From the NCBI RefSeq assembly GCF_032191465.1, contig NZ_JAQOUE010000001.1, positions 1,178,001 through 1,242,000 on the forward strand: a DNA stretch of 64,000 bases. The letters run 5' to 3'. Every line of letters begins with the position of its first letter. Positions within the stretch are counted from its first letter, which is position 1. Positions 8,513 through 52,596 of the stretch are shown here, one piece after another. This DNA is from Candidatus Nitronereus thalassa (GTDB lineage Bacteria > Nitrospirota > Nitrospiria > Nitrospirales > UBA8639). The notes under the pieces were generated by a model that was not told the DNA's origin, made no database searches, and worked only from the letters and a program-made list of their open reading frames with translations. The position numbers and the translations under genes were made by a program.

Positions 8513-8839
8513 ATGGCACAAGACATGTCATCTGATGATTCATGCTGGGTCACCACGTTTGTTTTTATTTCTGGACTTATTTTAGGAGCCGGAGCGGCAA
8601 TTTTATTGGCCCCAGAACCCGGAGCAAATTTACGAGGCCGATTGGCGAAAGGCGCCAAGATTGCCCAAGAGGAATTTGGGGAGGTGGCCAATGAAACCAA
8701 AGAGGCCCTTCGCGTCATTTCTCAAGACACTCAACGAACCGTCAAAAAAGCCGCTTCTCGTATTAACGATGCCGTCGAAGCTACAAAGAACGCTGTCATT
8801 GCAAATGAAGGAGACCAACCATCTCCCCCCGTCAATTGA
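8513..8839 (+). CDS. YtxH-domain small membrane protein
   Basis: 108 residues. One N-terminal membrane helix (about 13-33, SGLILGAGAAILLAPEPGA) carries the YtxH-type end LLAPEPG. A charged amphipathic helical region (KGAKIAQEEFGEVANETKEA) follows, of the kind seen in gas-vesicle-like and general stress proteins. A strong ribosome-binding site (AAGGAG) precedes the ATG. Members are often stress-induced, but function is not established. It is the last gene of the plus-strand group that begins upstream of glgC. Confidence 0.75.
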   Translation: MAQDMSSDDSCWVTTFVFISGLILGAGAAILLAPEPGANLRGRLAKGAKIAQEEFGEVANETKEALRVISQDTQRTVKKAASRINDAVEATKNAVIANEGDQPSPPVN

Positions 8840-8846
8840 TCCTCCG

Positions 8847-8873
8847 CGGTTAAAAAAAAAACGCTTTTAACCG
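8847..8873. terminator. AT-rich hairpin between convergent genes
   Basis: CGGTTAAAA (8847-8855) pairs perfectly with TTTTAACCG (8865-8873). It sits exactly between two converging genes (YtxH-like and the GT81-like transferase), where a bidirectional terminator is expected. The stem has few G-C pairs, and the T-tract seen on the minus strand falls inside the hairpin, so strength is doubtful. Confidence 0.4.
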
Positions 8874-46577: not shown

Positions 46578-47600
46578 CTATAGGCTACATAATTGGTGTT
46601 CCAGCCTATCCTGTCCATCCAAGAATTGAAGACCAAGCGACATAACCCACACCGGATCAGCATAAGGCCATATGGGTATGACTTTCACGATGTCTTTTTC
46701 CGTCGTTAAAAGAACTTGGGATTGAGCTTGCAATGCCCGCTGTTGAATTTCCTCAAGAGTTTCGAGTGTATATGCCATGTGGTCCGGGTAAATTAGTTCC
46801 TCCACGACTTGCGCTTCCAGCCGTTCTACCAAATGTCGAAAGGAGCCGGCATTCGCAATACCACTAAATAAACAGACCCGTTTTCCCTGTAACCAAAATG
46901 GGTCGTGAACCACATCGCTCCCCCCACAGAGAATCCCCGTCCCATGAAACCGGGAGGTAATGGGAACAATAGATTCACCAAGGGCAGACTCCAATAATTG
47001 TCGGACCGACTCCGTATCTTCCTGTCTCTCCGCACGCGTAAAAATTATTTCTGAGGCCCGACGAGCACCAGATATTGGCTCCCGCAATTTCCCCAGCGGA
47101 AGCAAGGACTTTAGACTAGATACATCCGAAACATCGACAAGCAAAAGGTTCAAATCTCGCTCAAGATTCAAATGTTGAAACCCATCATCCAACACAAAAC
47201 AATCCACGTCATGTTGCTCCAGCACCCAACGACCCAATTCATAACGATTGGCACCGACTGCCACAACAATTCCCGGACAACGGGTCGCCATGAGAAATGG
47301 CTCATCTCCCGCTTCTTTCGGTCCGGTGAGGATATCGTTCCCGTTAGAAACCAATAAGAATGGTTTTCCAGACTGGCGCCGATACCCCCGGCTTAGGATT
47401 GCTACCCGTTTACCAGTGGCCGCCAAATATCGGGAGACCCACATGGTCATGGGAGTCTTGCCGGTTCCGCCTACCGTAAGGTTTCCGACACTCACGACGG
47501 GACGTGGCAACCGCTTGGACTTTTTCAGGCCTTGTTGATACAACCAAAGACGTGAACGCACCACCAACTGATACGGGTAGGTCAAGAGATTGGCCAACAC
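46578..47600 (-). CDS. lpxK: Tetraacyldisaccharide 4'-kinase
   Basis: 340 residues. Walker A GGTGKT (44-49) within GNLTVGGTGKTP, then ILSRGYRR and DDGFQHLNLERD, all LpxK hallmarks. It phosphorylates the 4' position of the lipid A precursor at the inner membrane. The start is GTG at 47600 with GAGGG 8 bases upstream. It follows waaA after 37 bases. Confidence 0.95.
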   Translation of the reverse strand: MLANLLTYPYQLVVRSRLWLYQQGLKKSKRLPRPVVSVGNLTVGGTGKTPMTMWVSRYLAATGKRVAILSRGYRRQSGKPFLLVSNGNDILTGPKEAGDEPFLMATRCPGIVVAVGANRYELGRWVLEQHDVDCFVLDDGFQHLNLERDLNLLLVDVSDVSSLKSLLPLGKLREPISGARRASEIIFTRAERQEDTESVRQLLESALGESIVPITSRFHGTGILCGGSDVVHDPFWLQGKRVCLFSGIANAGSFRHLVERLEAQVVEELIYPDHMAYTLETLEEIQQRALQAQSQVLLTTEKDIVKVIPIWPYADPVWVMSLGLQFLDGQDRLEHQLCSL

Positions 47601-47637: not shown

Positions 47638-48924
47638 TCAAGATGCCAACATTGGGGCTAGGAACTCCATATTCCGTTTCACTACACCCTGATTTTCAAG
47701 AACGACTTTTTGCGCAGCCTTGCCCATTCGACCAGCCAAAGATGAATCGTTGAGAATCGTCAGAACCAACGAGGCCATTTCGCTCGCATCGCCAACCTGA
47801 CGTCCCCCGCCACTCTCAACGAGAAGATCAGCAATTTCCTGACAATGATCGGTATGGGGACCAAACAAGACCGGTTTTCCCCACGAGGCCGGTTCCAAAA
47901 GATTATGCCCTCCCACTGGCACAAAGGTTCCACCGACAAATGCCACCCGAGCCAACGCATACACCTGCGCCAACTCGCCCCGGGTATCAAGTACAATCAC
48001 TCGAGAACCCGAAGCTCCAACCGGAGCACGACCCTGGCGTATTTGGCTTCTTCTCGTGACTTTTAAACCAAACGATCGCACAGTTTCTTCAAGTTGCTTG
48101 CTCCGTTCGATGTGACGAGGGGCCATTAACAAGACCAGATTGGGGTAAACTTTGAGGATATTTTGATAACAGTCCAGCAAGATCTCCTCTTCCTTGGCAT
48201 GAGTGCTGCCGGCCACAAGCAACACCTCATCATCTTGTAACTCCATCATGTGCGGATTCACTTGGACAGAGCGGGATTTCAATCCCACGAGCTCCACATC
48301 GAACTTCATATTGCCTGTTCGATGCACTCGTTCGGGAGAGGCTCCCAGGGCAGTCATTCGCTCGGCATCCCGCTCAGATTGCACCAAACAAACTTTGAAT
48401 GAAGAGAAAACGGTTTTCATGAAGGACTGCACCCACAGATACCGTTGAAAAGATCGCGTGGACAAACGCCCATTCACCAACGCGCTCGAGACCCCCTGTG
48501 CCTGAAGCTCCCTGAGCACATTGGGCCATAATTCGGTTTCAATGACCAGGAATGCCTTGGGACGAACGTGTTGGATAAACCGGCGGACGGTCCAGGGCCA
48601 ATCCAAAGGCAAATAACAATGACGCGCTATGCCAGCCAAGCGTTGCTCTACCGCTTCACGTCCCGTGTCGGTAATTGTGGAAACCAGGATCGTCAGGTTC
48701 GGAAAGGCTTGGTGAATTCCCGTAACCAATGGAACGGCAGCGAGAACTTCGCCCATCGATACTGCATGAACCCACAACACCGTTTGGTCCGAACCTATTC
48801 CCTGAGGGTGGGAGAGGCCTAGGCGCTGGGATAACCCTCGACGGCACCGTTTCTTGAGCAATAAAATGAGAACAATGACCGGCGCAGCCACCACCAAAAC
48901 CATATTATAAAGGAGGTACCACAT
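47638..48924 (-). CDS. waaA: 3-deoxy-D-manno-octulosonic acid transferase
   Basis: 428 residues. N-terminal membrane anchor (~5-23), the catalytic glutamate E59 in VHAVSMGEVLA, VIETELWPNVLRE, and a C-terminal GT30 nucleotide-sugar block FVGGTFVPVGGHNLLEPASWG. Adds Kdo from CMP-Kdo to lipid IVA. The ATG at 48924 is the usual N-terminus (MWYLLYN); an in-frame extension to 49014 would start inside the end of the preceding acyltransferase gene. No strong ribosome-binding site is seen. Confidence 0.94.
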   Translation of the reverse strand: MWYLLYNMVLVVAAPVIVLILLLKKRCRRGLSQRLGLSHPQGIGSDQTVLWVHAVSMGEVLAAVPLVTGIHQAFPNLTILVSTITDTGREAVEQRLAGIARHCYLPLDWPWTVRRFIQHVRPKAFLVIETELWPNVLRELQAQGVSSALVNGRLSTRSFQRYLWVQSFMKTVFSSFKVCLVQSERDAERMTALGASPERVHRTGNMKFDVELVGLKSRSVQVNPHMMELQDDEVLLVAGSTHAKEEEILLDCYQNILKVYPNLVLLMAPRHIERSKQLEETVRSFGLKVTRRSQIRQGRAPVGASGSRVIVLDTRGELAQVYALARVAFVGGTFVPVGGHNLLEPASWGKPVLFGPHTDHCQEIADLLVESGGGRQVGDASEMASLVLTILNDSSLAGRMGKAAQKVVLENQGVVKRNMEFLAPMLAS

Positions 48925-49020
48925 TTGGAAAGACGTATCGCACGGGCGTAGGTTGATGCTCAGAAGTCCGATGGTCCCTGACCAGAGAAGAAGGGATTCT
49001 CCGTTATGGCACAAAAGGAA

Positions 49021-49697
49021 CTATGGAGATTTTCCCACTTGTGGATGTCTGACTACTGCATCAGCCTCGGACCCCAAAGAACATAAGGTGGCTTCTAATT
49101 CTTGGCGGCGGATTTCAAGTATGGATTCGTCCACCAGCCGCTCTACCCAGAGAGGCGTTCCCCAAATAAAACACCCTCTGGAAAAAGGAAAAGGCAACAC
49201 GAATTGATCCCAACTCGAAAAGACTTTTTTTTTGAGCAGGCAAAGGTTAAAGGAACAATGGGAAGACCCGTAGCTTGGGCAAGTTGAATCACCCCTTTTT
49301 GGACAACGTGCCTAGGGCCTTTCGGGCCATCGGGGGTCACCACCAAATCAGCTCCTGACTTGCCAAGTCGAATCAACTGGCGCAACGCAACACTTCCACC
49401 ACGGGTCGTCGATCCTCGAACCGCCCCGAATCCAAATTGCTTCATAATTCCACAAATCAATTCCCCATCTCGATGCTGGCTAATGAGAATCTGTGCAACA
49501 TTTCCACGATAGGCCAAGGGCATCATCAATTGTTGGCCATGCCAAAAGGCAATAATCACTCGCTTGCCCTCGCCATAGAGTTGATCCACGAACTCCGATC
49601 CCTTGACGGACCACCGCATGGTTTTTCCCAACCCACGGATCAGCCAATATCCCACTCGGGGAATGACGGTCTTCGTTATCCAAGGATTGACGTCCAT
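49021..49697 (-). pseudogene. DUF374 lysophospholipid acyltransferase-like, frameshifted at an A9 tract
   Basis: As sequenced the frame is open from 49697 to a stop at 49143 (184 residues) and ends in non-family residues. At an A9 run on the coding strand (49233-49225, codons for K156-K158) one extra A would move to the next frame. That frame continues FSSWDQFVLPFPFSRG and then CFIWGTPLWVERL and stops at 49021, giving 225 residues, the usual length of DUF374. Visible motifs upstream: FWHGQQLM, ISQHRDGE and VTPDGPKGPR. So the gene is broken, read by polymerase or ribosome slippage on A9, or the run is miscounted. It is 17 bases from msbA, in the lipid A operon. Confidence 0.85.
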
Positions 49698-49714: not shown

Positions 49715-51472
49715 TTAGCTGAGAAGTGATTCCATCGGTACATCGTGGAATTGTGTTTGGTAGAGGCGCTTATACACCCCATTGCGACCAATGAGCTCCG
49801 TATGCGACCCAATTTCTAAAATACGTCCCTCATTCAAGACTACGATTCGATTGGCATGCTGAACAGTAGACAGACGATGCGCTATAACCAGAGTGGTCCT
49901 ATTCTTCAATAAGACCGTCAATGCCGCCTGCACCATGCGCTCCGACTCGGTATCCAGCGAAGAGGTGGCCTCATCAAGGATAAGCAATGGCGGATCTCGC
50001 AAAATAGCGCGTGCAATGGCCAAGCGTTGCCGTTGGCCTCCTGATAATTTCACCCCATTTTCTCCAATCAGCGTATTCAGACCATCGGGCAATTGCTCAA
50101 TGAATTCCCAGGCATGCGCCGCCTTGGCAGCCTCAATAACTTCAGTTTCACTGGCGTCAACGCGACCATATTGAATATTCGCCAAAATCGTTTCATCAAA
50201 CAACACCGTATCTTGTGAAACAATCGCGATGTGAGATCGCAAAGATTCCAGCGTCACCTCCTGAATATCCTGCCCATCGATCAAAATAATCCCATCGGTT
50301 GGATGGTAGAACCGTGACACTAAACTGATTAATGTGGATTTCCCACTACCACTCCGCCCGACAAAAGCGATAATCTCCCCCGCTCGAATAGCCAGATCTA
50401 TATTCGAAAGTGCAGGCCTCTCGCTGCCTTCATAACAAAAAGTCACGTTTTGAAATTCAAGGGAATGGGCCACTTTTGGCAACACAATATGGCCACGATC
50501 TTGTTCATACTCATTCCGCCGGTCAAGCATATCGAAGATACGATACCCCGCTGCGAGGGCACGCTGAATGGCCCCATTGGCCCCGGCTAATTTCCGCACC
50601 GGGGCATAAGCCATACCCAAGGCCAGCAAGAAGGAAAAAAACTCTCCTGGCTTCATCTGGTTCTCAATGACTAAAGAGCCGCCATACCAAATAATGACAG
50701 CAATCCCAGCCACGCCAATAATTTCCAACAAGGGAGACGCTAAAGCCGAAACTTGTGCCGATTTTATATTCGCGCGCATAAAGGCATGATTGCTTTTGCT
50801 AAACCGTTCGCCCTCAAGCTTCTCGGCTCCATAAGCTTTAACGATCCGAATCCCTTTCAGCGCCTCACTCACCGAGGAAGCCATATCGCCCATGGACTCT
50901 TGGCCTTTAGTAGAGAATTTCCGAATTCGTTTCCCGATTCGAATGATGGCAACGCCGGAGAATGGAAACACGAGCAAAACCAAAATGGCCAACTTCCAAT
51001 TCTGATAAAAAGCCACCCCTAGCATGGCCACAAACGTGAGCCCTTGCTGAAAAAGATCTTTCACAACACTAGGGATCGCATTCCCCATTTCATTCACATC
51101 ATTGACCACCCGGGCGAGGAGACGCCCGGAGGTATTGGCCTGATGAAACGGCATGGGCAAACGCAGAAATTGACCAAACAATTGATGGCGAACACCCGCC
51201 ACCAACTGATGCCCCACATAACTCATGAGGTAGGCCTGTCCGTAACTAAAAAGCCCCTTACATGCGGCTACGCCCATAATCACGATGGGCAAAACCACCA
51301 AGAGCGCCTGATCTTTCGCAATGAACAAATCATCCATGACCGGTTGCATCAACCAGGCATAGGCCGCCGTGGTTCCGGCGACCCCCGTAGCGCACACCAA
51401 GGCGGCAAACAGTCGACCATAATACCCTCGAAGGTATTTCAGAATTCTCAAAAAGACGTCTAGGCTTGACAT
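49715..51472 (-). CDS. msbA: Lipid A export permease/ATPase MsbA
   Basis: 585 residues, the normal MsbA length. Six-helix ABC exporter domain (~1-320), then the nucleotide-binding domain with Walker A GRSGSGKSTL (~373-382), signature LSGGQRQRLAIARAI, Walker B LLILDEATSSLD and H-loop IAHRLSTV. It flips core-lipid A across the inner membrane. The start overlaps the lpxB end by 13 bases, coupling synthesis and export. Confidence 0.95.
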   Translation of the reverse strand: MSSLDVFLRILKYLRGYYGRLFAALVCATGVAGTTAAYAWLMQPVMDDLFIAKDQALLVVLPIVIMGVAACKGLFSYGQAYLMSYVGHQLVAGVRHQLFGQFLRLPMPFHQANTSGRLLARVVNDVNEMGNAIPSVVKDLFQQGLTFVAMLGVAFYQNWKLAILVLLVFPFSGVAIIRIGKRIRKFSTKGQESMGDMASSVSEALKGIRIVKAYGAEKLEGERFSKSNHAFMRANIKSAQVSALASPLLEIIGVAGIAVIIWYGGSLVIENQMKPGEFFSFLLALGMAYAPVRKLAGANGAIQRALAAGYRIFDMLDRRNEYEQDRGHIVLPKVAHSLEFQNVTFCYEGSERPALSNIDLAIRAGEIIAFVGRSGSGKSTLISLVSRFYHPTDGIILIDGQDIQEVTLESLRSHIAIVSQDTVLFDETILANIQYGRVDASETEVIEAAKAAHAWEFIEQLPDGLNTLIGENGVKLSGGQRQRLAIARAILRDPPLLILDEATSSLDTESERMVQAALTVLLKNRTTLVIAHRLSTVQHANRIVVLNEGRILEIGSHTELIGRNGVYKRLYQTQFHDVPMESLLS

Positions 51473-52596
51473 TCCGCTAACACCACCTCCGCCGCACGGT
51501 CTGAAGCACCAGGCGCACCCATTTGTTCACGAATAGAGATAAACGATTGTTCCATGGAACGATATCGCTCACGATCTTTCAAGAGGCTCATGGCTTCTTC
51601 AAACAATCGATCTGCCGTAGCTTCCTCTTGAAGCAACTCAGGAACAACCCCACGACCCGCGACTAAATTTACTAAGCCCAGGTGCTTGACCAAAGCGATG
51701 CGTTTCGCAATATGATAGGTCAGCCAGGATAATCGATAGGTAATGATCATCGGCGTCCCTACCAACGCCGCCTGAAGCGTAGCAGTACCCGAAGCCACAA
51801 GCAGCAGATCAGCCGCCGCCATCACCTCATTCGTCTGATTAGCCACGACCGTAACTGGCAATTTTTCACGATCAATCAGGGCTTCGAGGCAGTCACTGGA
51901 AATCGACTGCGCTTGACCAACGACGCACCGGACATCAGGATCGAACGTTCTCATTTTTTTGACTGCCTGAATCATTTCGGGGAGCAATGGTTGCACCTCG
52001 GAAAGACGACTGCCCGGCAGCACTCCAATAATCAATCCACCCTCGGGCAAGCCCAATTGTTTTCGTGCATATCGGCGGTCATAGGGAAGTGCGAGTGTGT
52101 CGAGCAGAGGATGTCCAACAAAGTCACAAGGCACTCCGGCATCTCGATAGATAGCTTCTTCAAAGGGCAGAATGACAATCATGCGACGGACAACTCGTTT
52201 AATCAAATGAATTCGATGCCGGCCCCAAGCCCAAATTTGTGGAGCGATATAATAAATCACCCTATGCCCAAGCTTTGCCGCCATTCTCGCCAACCGAAGA
52301 TTCATGGACGGGTTATCCACGAATACGACACCATTCAAGTTCAATTCCTTGAAAAAACGTTTCATGGTAAAGAGATTGAAGATTCCCTTGCCAATGGTCA
52401 CCGGACCTGGCACTCCAACCGCATCTAATCGTTTGAGGCCTTGAAGCAATTCCACCCCCGCGGCACGCATGTGCTGCCCCCCCACGCCCAACAATCGAAT
52501 GTTGGGATCTCTGGCCTTTAAAGCCTTCGCCAAATTCGCCCCATGTAAATCCCCCGAGGCTTCTCCAGTGACAATAAGTAGGGTGGGAGCAGACAT
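51460..52596 (-). CDS. lpxB: Lipid-A-disaccharide synthase
   Basis: 378 residues, GT19. GEASGDLHGANLAKAL at the start, FVDNPSMNLRLARMA, YYIAPQIWAWG, VLPFE, and VASGTATLQAALVGTPMIITYR. It joins UDP-diacyl-glucosamine and lipid X into the lipid A disaccharide. Between the Gfo/Idh gene (16 bases) and msbA (overlap). Confidence 0.97.
   Translation of the reverse strand: MSAPTLLIVTGEASGDLHGANLAKALKARDPNIRLLGVGGQHMRAAGVELLQGLKRLDAVGVPGPVTIGKGIFNLFTMKRFFKELNLNGVVFVDNPSMNLRLARMAAKLGHRVIYYIAPQIWAWGRHRIHLIKRVVRRMIVILPFEEAIYRDAGVPCDFVGHPLLDTLALPYDRRYARKQLGLPEGGLIIGVLPGSRLSEVQPLLPEMIQAVKKMRTFDPDVRCVVGQAQSISSDCLEALIDREKLPVTVVANQTNEVMAAADLLLVASGTATLQAALVGTPMIITYRLSWLTYHIAKRIALVKHLGLVNLVAGRGVVPELLQEEATADRLFEEAMSLLKDRERYRSMEQSFISIREQMGAPGASDRAAEVVLAECQA

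Follow-up and report, generated by a model that had tools for sequence, protein, structure and literature searches.

How a full-length lipid A acyltransferase can be obtained from a gene whose reading frame is interrupted at a homopolymer, and why such a gene would be kept, are the questions raised by a locus of Candidatus Nitronereus thalassa. The locus lies in a stretch of 64,000 nucleotides that was analysed as a whole (the window), in which all positions are counted. The 0-frame ORF of this DUF374/LpxJ gene (49143..49697, minus strand) encodes an unshifted product of 184 amino acids, consisting of the family sequence up to a run of nine A's (A9; 49225..49233, minus strand) and a non-conserved tail. 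Comparison with relatives showed that past the run the family sequence, SSWDQF...PFSR, carries on in the -1 frame. This C-terminal part (49021..49224, minus strand) reads VFSSWDQFVLPFPFSR... and ends with a stop at 49021; 3' of the run it contains the family motif SWDxFxxPxPFSR. With A10 in place of A9 a 225-residue protein is encoded and with A7 one of 224 residues, both ending at 49021. An earlier note, made from the sequence alone, had claimed that the A9 ends the DUF374 frame, that the family sequence continues in the next frame to this stop and that one extra A gives 225 residues; these claims held, with coordinates and counts correct.

A single A9 is unremarkable by chance, as three A9 matches were observed in the window versus 3.9 expected from shuffles, and what exceeds chance is that relatives have it at a fixed position and with a fixed frame offset. 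The window has just one more long A-run, an A10 at 8852-8861, which lies between ORFs, just past a 108-aa ORF ending at 8839.

Identity of the gene and its genomic context

The gene product is likely an LpxJ-type (DUF374) late acyltransferase of lipid A; its substrate, its activity and the 3'-secondary acylation are inferred from the sequence. Residues 64-129 matched PF04028 (DUF374) with an E value of 1.3e-26 and 92.4 bits against a curated cut-off of 26.8, and this domain is located 5' of the A9 run. The residues W60, H61, D86, D132, W172 and D173 are essential in LpxJ of Rickettsia typhi (PMC6148475), and the counterparts in Candidatus Nitronereus thalassa are W52-H53, D77, D123 and W163-D164. 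The spacing agrees with Rickettsia, the last three sites being 46 and 40 residues apart; the match rests on motif and spacing, and the R. typhi sequence itself was not aligned. The gene resembles LpxJ (DUF374) of Rickettsia, Helicobacter and Campylobacter in its family and in the essential WH, D, D and WD with the same spacing, whereas no frameshift was described for those genes in PMC6148475. A search of the PDB gave no significant homologue.

The codons for W163-D164 in the SWD motif (49207..49212, minus strand) lie beyond the run and are part of the shifted product only. As these residues are essential in Rickettsia, the unshifted form is probably without acyltransferase activity, an inference that we regard as likely to be right.

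Pfam matches placed the gene in an operon-like array on the minus strand, with an MsbA-type ABC transporter as the upstream neighbour (49715..51472, minus strand) and Kdo transferase (waaA/kdtA; 47638..49014, minus strand) downstream, and with lpxB (51460..52596, minus strand) and lpxK (46578..47600, minus strand) further out. The order is lpxA, lpxI, a Gfo/Idh oxidoreductase, lpxB, the MsbA-type transporter, the DUF374 gene, waaA, lpxK, a heptosyltransferase, a HAD phosphatase (gmhB-like) and a second heptosyltransferase. No PF03279 (LpxL/LpxM) gene was found in the Candidatus Nitronereus thalassa genome, and the family was absent from 46 of the 58 genomes of the order searched (45 of the other 57 and Candidatus Nitronereus thalassa). 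The DUF374 gene is inferred to be the sole recognised late acyltransferase candidate in this genome, and since a PF03279 gene is missing a functional LpxJ is plausibly needed.

Conservation of the break and of the run

With the frame-joined protein as the query, the gene was found in 45 of the 49 genomes of the same family and, in 43 of these, was split in two at one and the same residue. In the order it was found in 183 of the 197 genomes, and almost all of these copies were likewise split. Sequences retrieved at the level of the order and of the class, and from further families of the phylum, had the same break. The protein searches yielded 187 distinct sequences, 166 of which had the -1 break, and every one of these 166 had 9-11 A's at the same site (A9 in 149, A10 in 16 and A11 in one). 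Among the other 21 sequences 20 were in frame, and one (G010) had A10 and continued in the third frame; only three of the 21 had nine or more A's, namely G010, G039 (A10) and G175 (A9 with an apparent upstream indel), and the in-frame lineages were mostly without the A-run. The association between run and break (166/166 versus 3/21) gave a Fisher p of 2.5e-22 with relatedness ignored; the distinct sequences share kinship, so that the counts overstate independence. The break and the run are thus conserved, and the roughly 20 sequences in frame indicate that the break can be dispensed with.

Natural reversions or altered frames were observed in L006 (G018), L007 (G039), L049 (G149), L050 (G175), L024 (G010), L282 (G204) and family f4. 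Some of them have lost the A-run; an A10 stands in frame in G039, the A9 of G175 is accompanied by a compensating upstream indel, and G010 has lost a T after the run. They are useful natural controls, and assembly error is possible for some.

The broken frame could be the result of a sequencing or assembly miscount, or mark a decaying pseudogene. For a miscount speaks that the assembly is in two contigs, its technology is unstated and the site is a homopolymer. Against it, the same break was present in independent genomes, including the complete chromosomes of Nitrospira moscoviensis (NZ_CP011801) and N. defluvii (FP929003), and further A9 runs of the same genome sit in intact frames. The 4.01-Mb genome of Candidatus Nitronereus thalassa has 41 separate runs of A9 or longer; inspection of 30 A9 runs revealed a clear family-supported frame change at the LpxJ site alone, with at least eight in intact long ORFs. 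These intact ORFs indicate that the assembly is not generally broken at homopolymers, and a genome-wide homopolymer error was rejected. We consider miscount and pseudogene, the latter taken up below, as practically ruled out. The 41 runs are about six-fold fewer than the approximately 245 expected by a rough extrapolation from the window shuffles, and long A-runs seem to be avoided in this genome.

Phase variation, in which replication slippage alters the run length and switches LpxJ on or off, was also considered. Homopolymers are classical sites for it and envelope genes are plausible targets. However, length and offset were nearly constant among species (149 A9, 16 A10 and one A11), and phase-variable genes are expected in all frames, which makes this reading highly improbable. 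The earlier note had listed miscount and phase variation as alternatives and an in-frame run in relatives as a refutation; the first failed, being excluded by the conservation in independently sequenced genomes, the second is disfavoured by the near-constant run, and the relatives, when looked at, had the same out-of-frame run instead.

Selection on the reading frames and on the run

Substitutions were counted in 67 non-overlapping close pairs. In the upstream part 139, 78 and 690 changes fell on 0-frame codon positions 1, 2 and 3, respectively, and in the downstream part 170, 90 and 475 changes fell on -1-frame codon positions 1, 2 and 3. The third-position bias downstream means that the shifted product is translated and selected and that the two halves form one protein; the -1 frame is under purifying selection. 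A pseudogene was rejected on the basis of this substitution pattern, with purifying selection on both halves. The 0-frame tail ranged from 4 to 92 codons among relatives and, in the relatives compared, had neither a coding signal nor conservation of sequence or length; a functional short form was rejected on this length range and lack of coding signal.

The codon before the run is informative as well. The serine at this position is encoded by TCA in 151 of 156 sequences and by TCT in the remaining five, which then have three full AAA codons, against a background of 94 TCA among 1195 serine codons in the upstream parts (8%). Sequences with other contexts before the run (TCT, TTA, CGC or CGT) still had at least nine A's. 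The TCA bias and the maintained length in other contexts together indicate that the A-run itself is selected.

A separate observation concerns the first -1-frame codon past the run (49214-49224 region), which in slip-type sequences was CTC (93), GTC (36), ATC (12) or CTT (5). Its third base is nearly always a pyrimidine, and CTG, TTG and GTG never occurred there though they are common elsewhere in the genes; in-frame relatives had GTG, GTA or CTG. This preference is a synonymous constraint beyond the run that remains unexplained.

RNA polymerase or ribosome

In the mechanism that we propose, selection would maintain a run of nine or more A's that holds the LpxJ gene out of frame, and full-length LpxJ would come only from the fraction of product in which the frame is restored at the run. 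RNA polymerase would insert one A (A10) or omit two (A7) in some transcripts and so join the -1 frame, and the templated A9 transcripts would yield the 184-aa form without the essential Trp-Asp motif. The likely outcome is that the dose of LpxJ would be fixed and, compared with the operon partners, lowered. We regard transcriptional slippage as the likely source of full-length LpxJ, with a good margin of doubt; the role of the polymerase is inferred without RNA or protein data, as are the slip ratio, the inactivity of the short form and the role in dosage. The purpose of the split is unproven, and a reduced fixed dose is a possible and the simplest reading.

The alternative is that ribosomes undergo programmed -1 frameshifting in the run, perhaps with a downstream hairpin as the stimulator, as happens in E. 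coli dnaX, and so make two products from one mRNA; this remains possible and is not excluded. The 0 frame reads TCA AAA AAA AAG at the run, which is the exact dnaX register, and contains A_AAA_AAG, an efficient ribosomal heptamer in E. coli. A 7-bp hairpin predicted at 49200..49217 (minus strand) starts 7 nt past the A9 run and 6 nt past the heptamer in the window and is a possible stimulator, although its conservation as such was not shown. Stems of at least 5 bp were somewhat commoner downstream in the family than in synonymous shuffles (88% versus 69%). Reporters of Mg-chelatase genes in E. coli showed frameshifting that tracks poly-A length, with 63% for A11, 40% for A9 and 10% for A7 (PMC3711429), but these do not separate polymerase from ribosome.

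Several observations weigh against the ribosome. Seven A's would be enough for it, yet no run of 7 or 8 A's was found among the 166 frame-broken sequences, even at AAG-type sites where the first A's lie outside the heptamer. A run of at least nine in all 166, in varied registers, with a ribosomal heptamer needing only seven, favours the polymerase. A Shine-Dalgarno-like core upstream of the run was present in 5 of the 166 and absent in 161, and family-wide the downstream RNA structure gave z values near the control, with no strong hairpin. The scarcity of Shine-Dalgarno-like signals and the lack of a strong structure signal also favour the polymerase over a ribosomal event whose stimulators are mostly missing or inconsistent. 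In vitro, E. coli ribosomes showed little sliding on A9-A10 and robust sliding on A11 (PMC4363877), which makes ribosomal sliding weak at the lengths found here. Slippage by RNA polymerase depends on the length of the whole run; avoidance of A or T runs starts at nine in many bacteria, and Thermus thermophilus dnaX slips at A9 (PMC1088944).

As ribosomal heptamers do exist at the site (A_AAA_AAG here, and A_AAA_AAA or A_AAA_AAC elsewhere), slippage by the polymerase is favoured and not proven. The Candidatus Nitronereus thalassa genome contains at least eight further A9 runs that are read in frame within long ORFs, so A9 need not slip strongly here. The claim of the earlier note that slippage could let one gene make both a short form and the full enzyme is supported, with RNA polymerase favoured but unproven in the absence of RNA data; the note was silent on the ribosomal heptamers.

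The 50 nt upstream of the run were slightly more structured family-wide (mean z -1.0 versus -0.44 in the control, and -0.59 versus -0.11 with synonymous shuffles). The signal was unconvincing, and such structure was absent in the window itself.

Distribution, age and persistence of the break

When about 85,000 species genomes were scanned for the pattern, at least 120 stretches were returned, and all matches examined encode this DUF374 protein on both sides of the run; the chromosomes of N. moscoviensis and N. defluvii are among them. Metagenome-assembled genomes (MAGs) deposited as Deltaproteobacteria had the same break, with A10. The break with A10 was observed in MAGs named Deltaproteobacteria, Proteobacteria or unclassified (L195, L202, L205, L210, L218, L242, L252, L257, L262, L266 and L168). 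For the A10 MAGs labelled outside Nitrospirota, an origin older than Nitrospirota or gene transfer may be envisaged. Contigs deposited as Acidimicrobiia, Nitrosospira or Gemmatimonadetes (L159, L186, L238 and L240) carried Nitrospira-like gene copies; some copies with these labels nest within Nitrospirota groups in the tree, and such contigs are likely misbinned.

The tree was built from 90 frame-joined proteins with the A-tract excluded. It requires nine state changes, at least six of which are forced by strongly supported branches, and its deep branching is weakly supported. A single early origin and several later reversions would be compatible with it, families f20 and f23 lying outside. 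The break is near-universal in the Nitrospirales examined, and an ancestor common with the lineages labelled as other phyla is conceivable.

The break might also persist as a neutral trap, in which an old frameshift in a slippery run is rescued by slippage and kept without benefit, an account that fits either machine. The lack of conservation in the 0-frame tail, in sequence and in length, leaves no visible role for the short form, and rescue of frameshifts by run slippage is known from literature cited in PMC3711429. However, runs mutate easily and one indel repairs the frame, while the break persists over several families and probably phyla; in-frame versions exist (G018, G039, G149, f4 and f24) but are rare. 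Persistence despite such easy repair seems to need selection that either favours the break or disfavours its repair, and we lean, without much margin, against the neutral trap and retain selective maintenance of the run.

Comparison with known systems and significance

Few cellular genes that depend on slippage or frameshifting are deeply conserved, dnaX, prfB, chlD and a handful more. In T. thermophilus dnaX slippage at A9 gives mixed transcripts and two products (PMC1088944). The LpxJ gene is similar in having an A9 run in a housekeeping gene, but the genes are unrelated, and in dnaX the templated product is long and the slipped one short, whereas LpxJ needs slippage for the long active product. 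A longer product by homopolymer slippage is also obtained in Shigella mxiE and Citrobacter rodentium tssM1 (PMC4256274; PMC1088944), and in tssM1 each of the two forms is important, as is the ratio between them (PMC4256274; PMC1088944). Unlike these accessory secretion genes of narrow distribution, LpxJ belongs to the lipid A operon and is conserved across families of the phylum. The heptamer A_AAA_AAG is shared with E. coli dnaX, in the same register in the window, but in LpxJ the run of at least nine is conserved, and Shine-Dalgarno-like and strong downstream stimulators are missing in most relatives. Among metabolic genes, chlD (Mg-chelatase) likewise has a -1 frameshift that is ancient and conserved and occurs partly at poly-A (PMC3711429, PMC9227772); both chlD products are known subunits and downstream structure is usual there, whereas the short form of LpxJ has no evident role.

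We found no published frameshift in an LpxJ/DUF374 gene in the literature searched; the supplementary cluster lists of GeneTack could still include one. Programmed slippage or frameshifting is a known kind of event, and it is likely that its occurrence in an LpxJ-type gene is unreported and its conservation unusually deep.

A bolder reading, which we consider unlikely, is that the run is an ancient regulatory gate, at which polymerase slippage determines how much of the sole recognised late acyltransferase is made. Slippage might then depend on nucleotide supply, temperature or the state of the polymerase, and the truncated form might modulate the full enzyme, which is equally doubtful. If true, the gate would couple lipid A acylation to the state of the cell across Nitrospirota and some other lineages.

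The slip site belongs to a core envelope pathway. Automatic annotation likely calls the gene a broken pseudogene or two fragments, as we infer, and because of such annotation Nitrospira genomes could seem to be without a late lipid A acyltransferase. The A9, A10 and A11 runs and the in-frame versions provide a clean natural series for asking what slippage is selected for. It is likely that a slip was built into this gene long ago and has been kept in well over a hundred species, and that neither an error nor the death of the gene accounts for the break.
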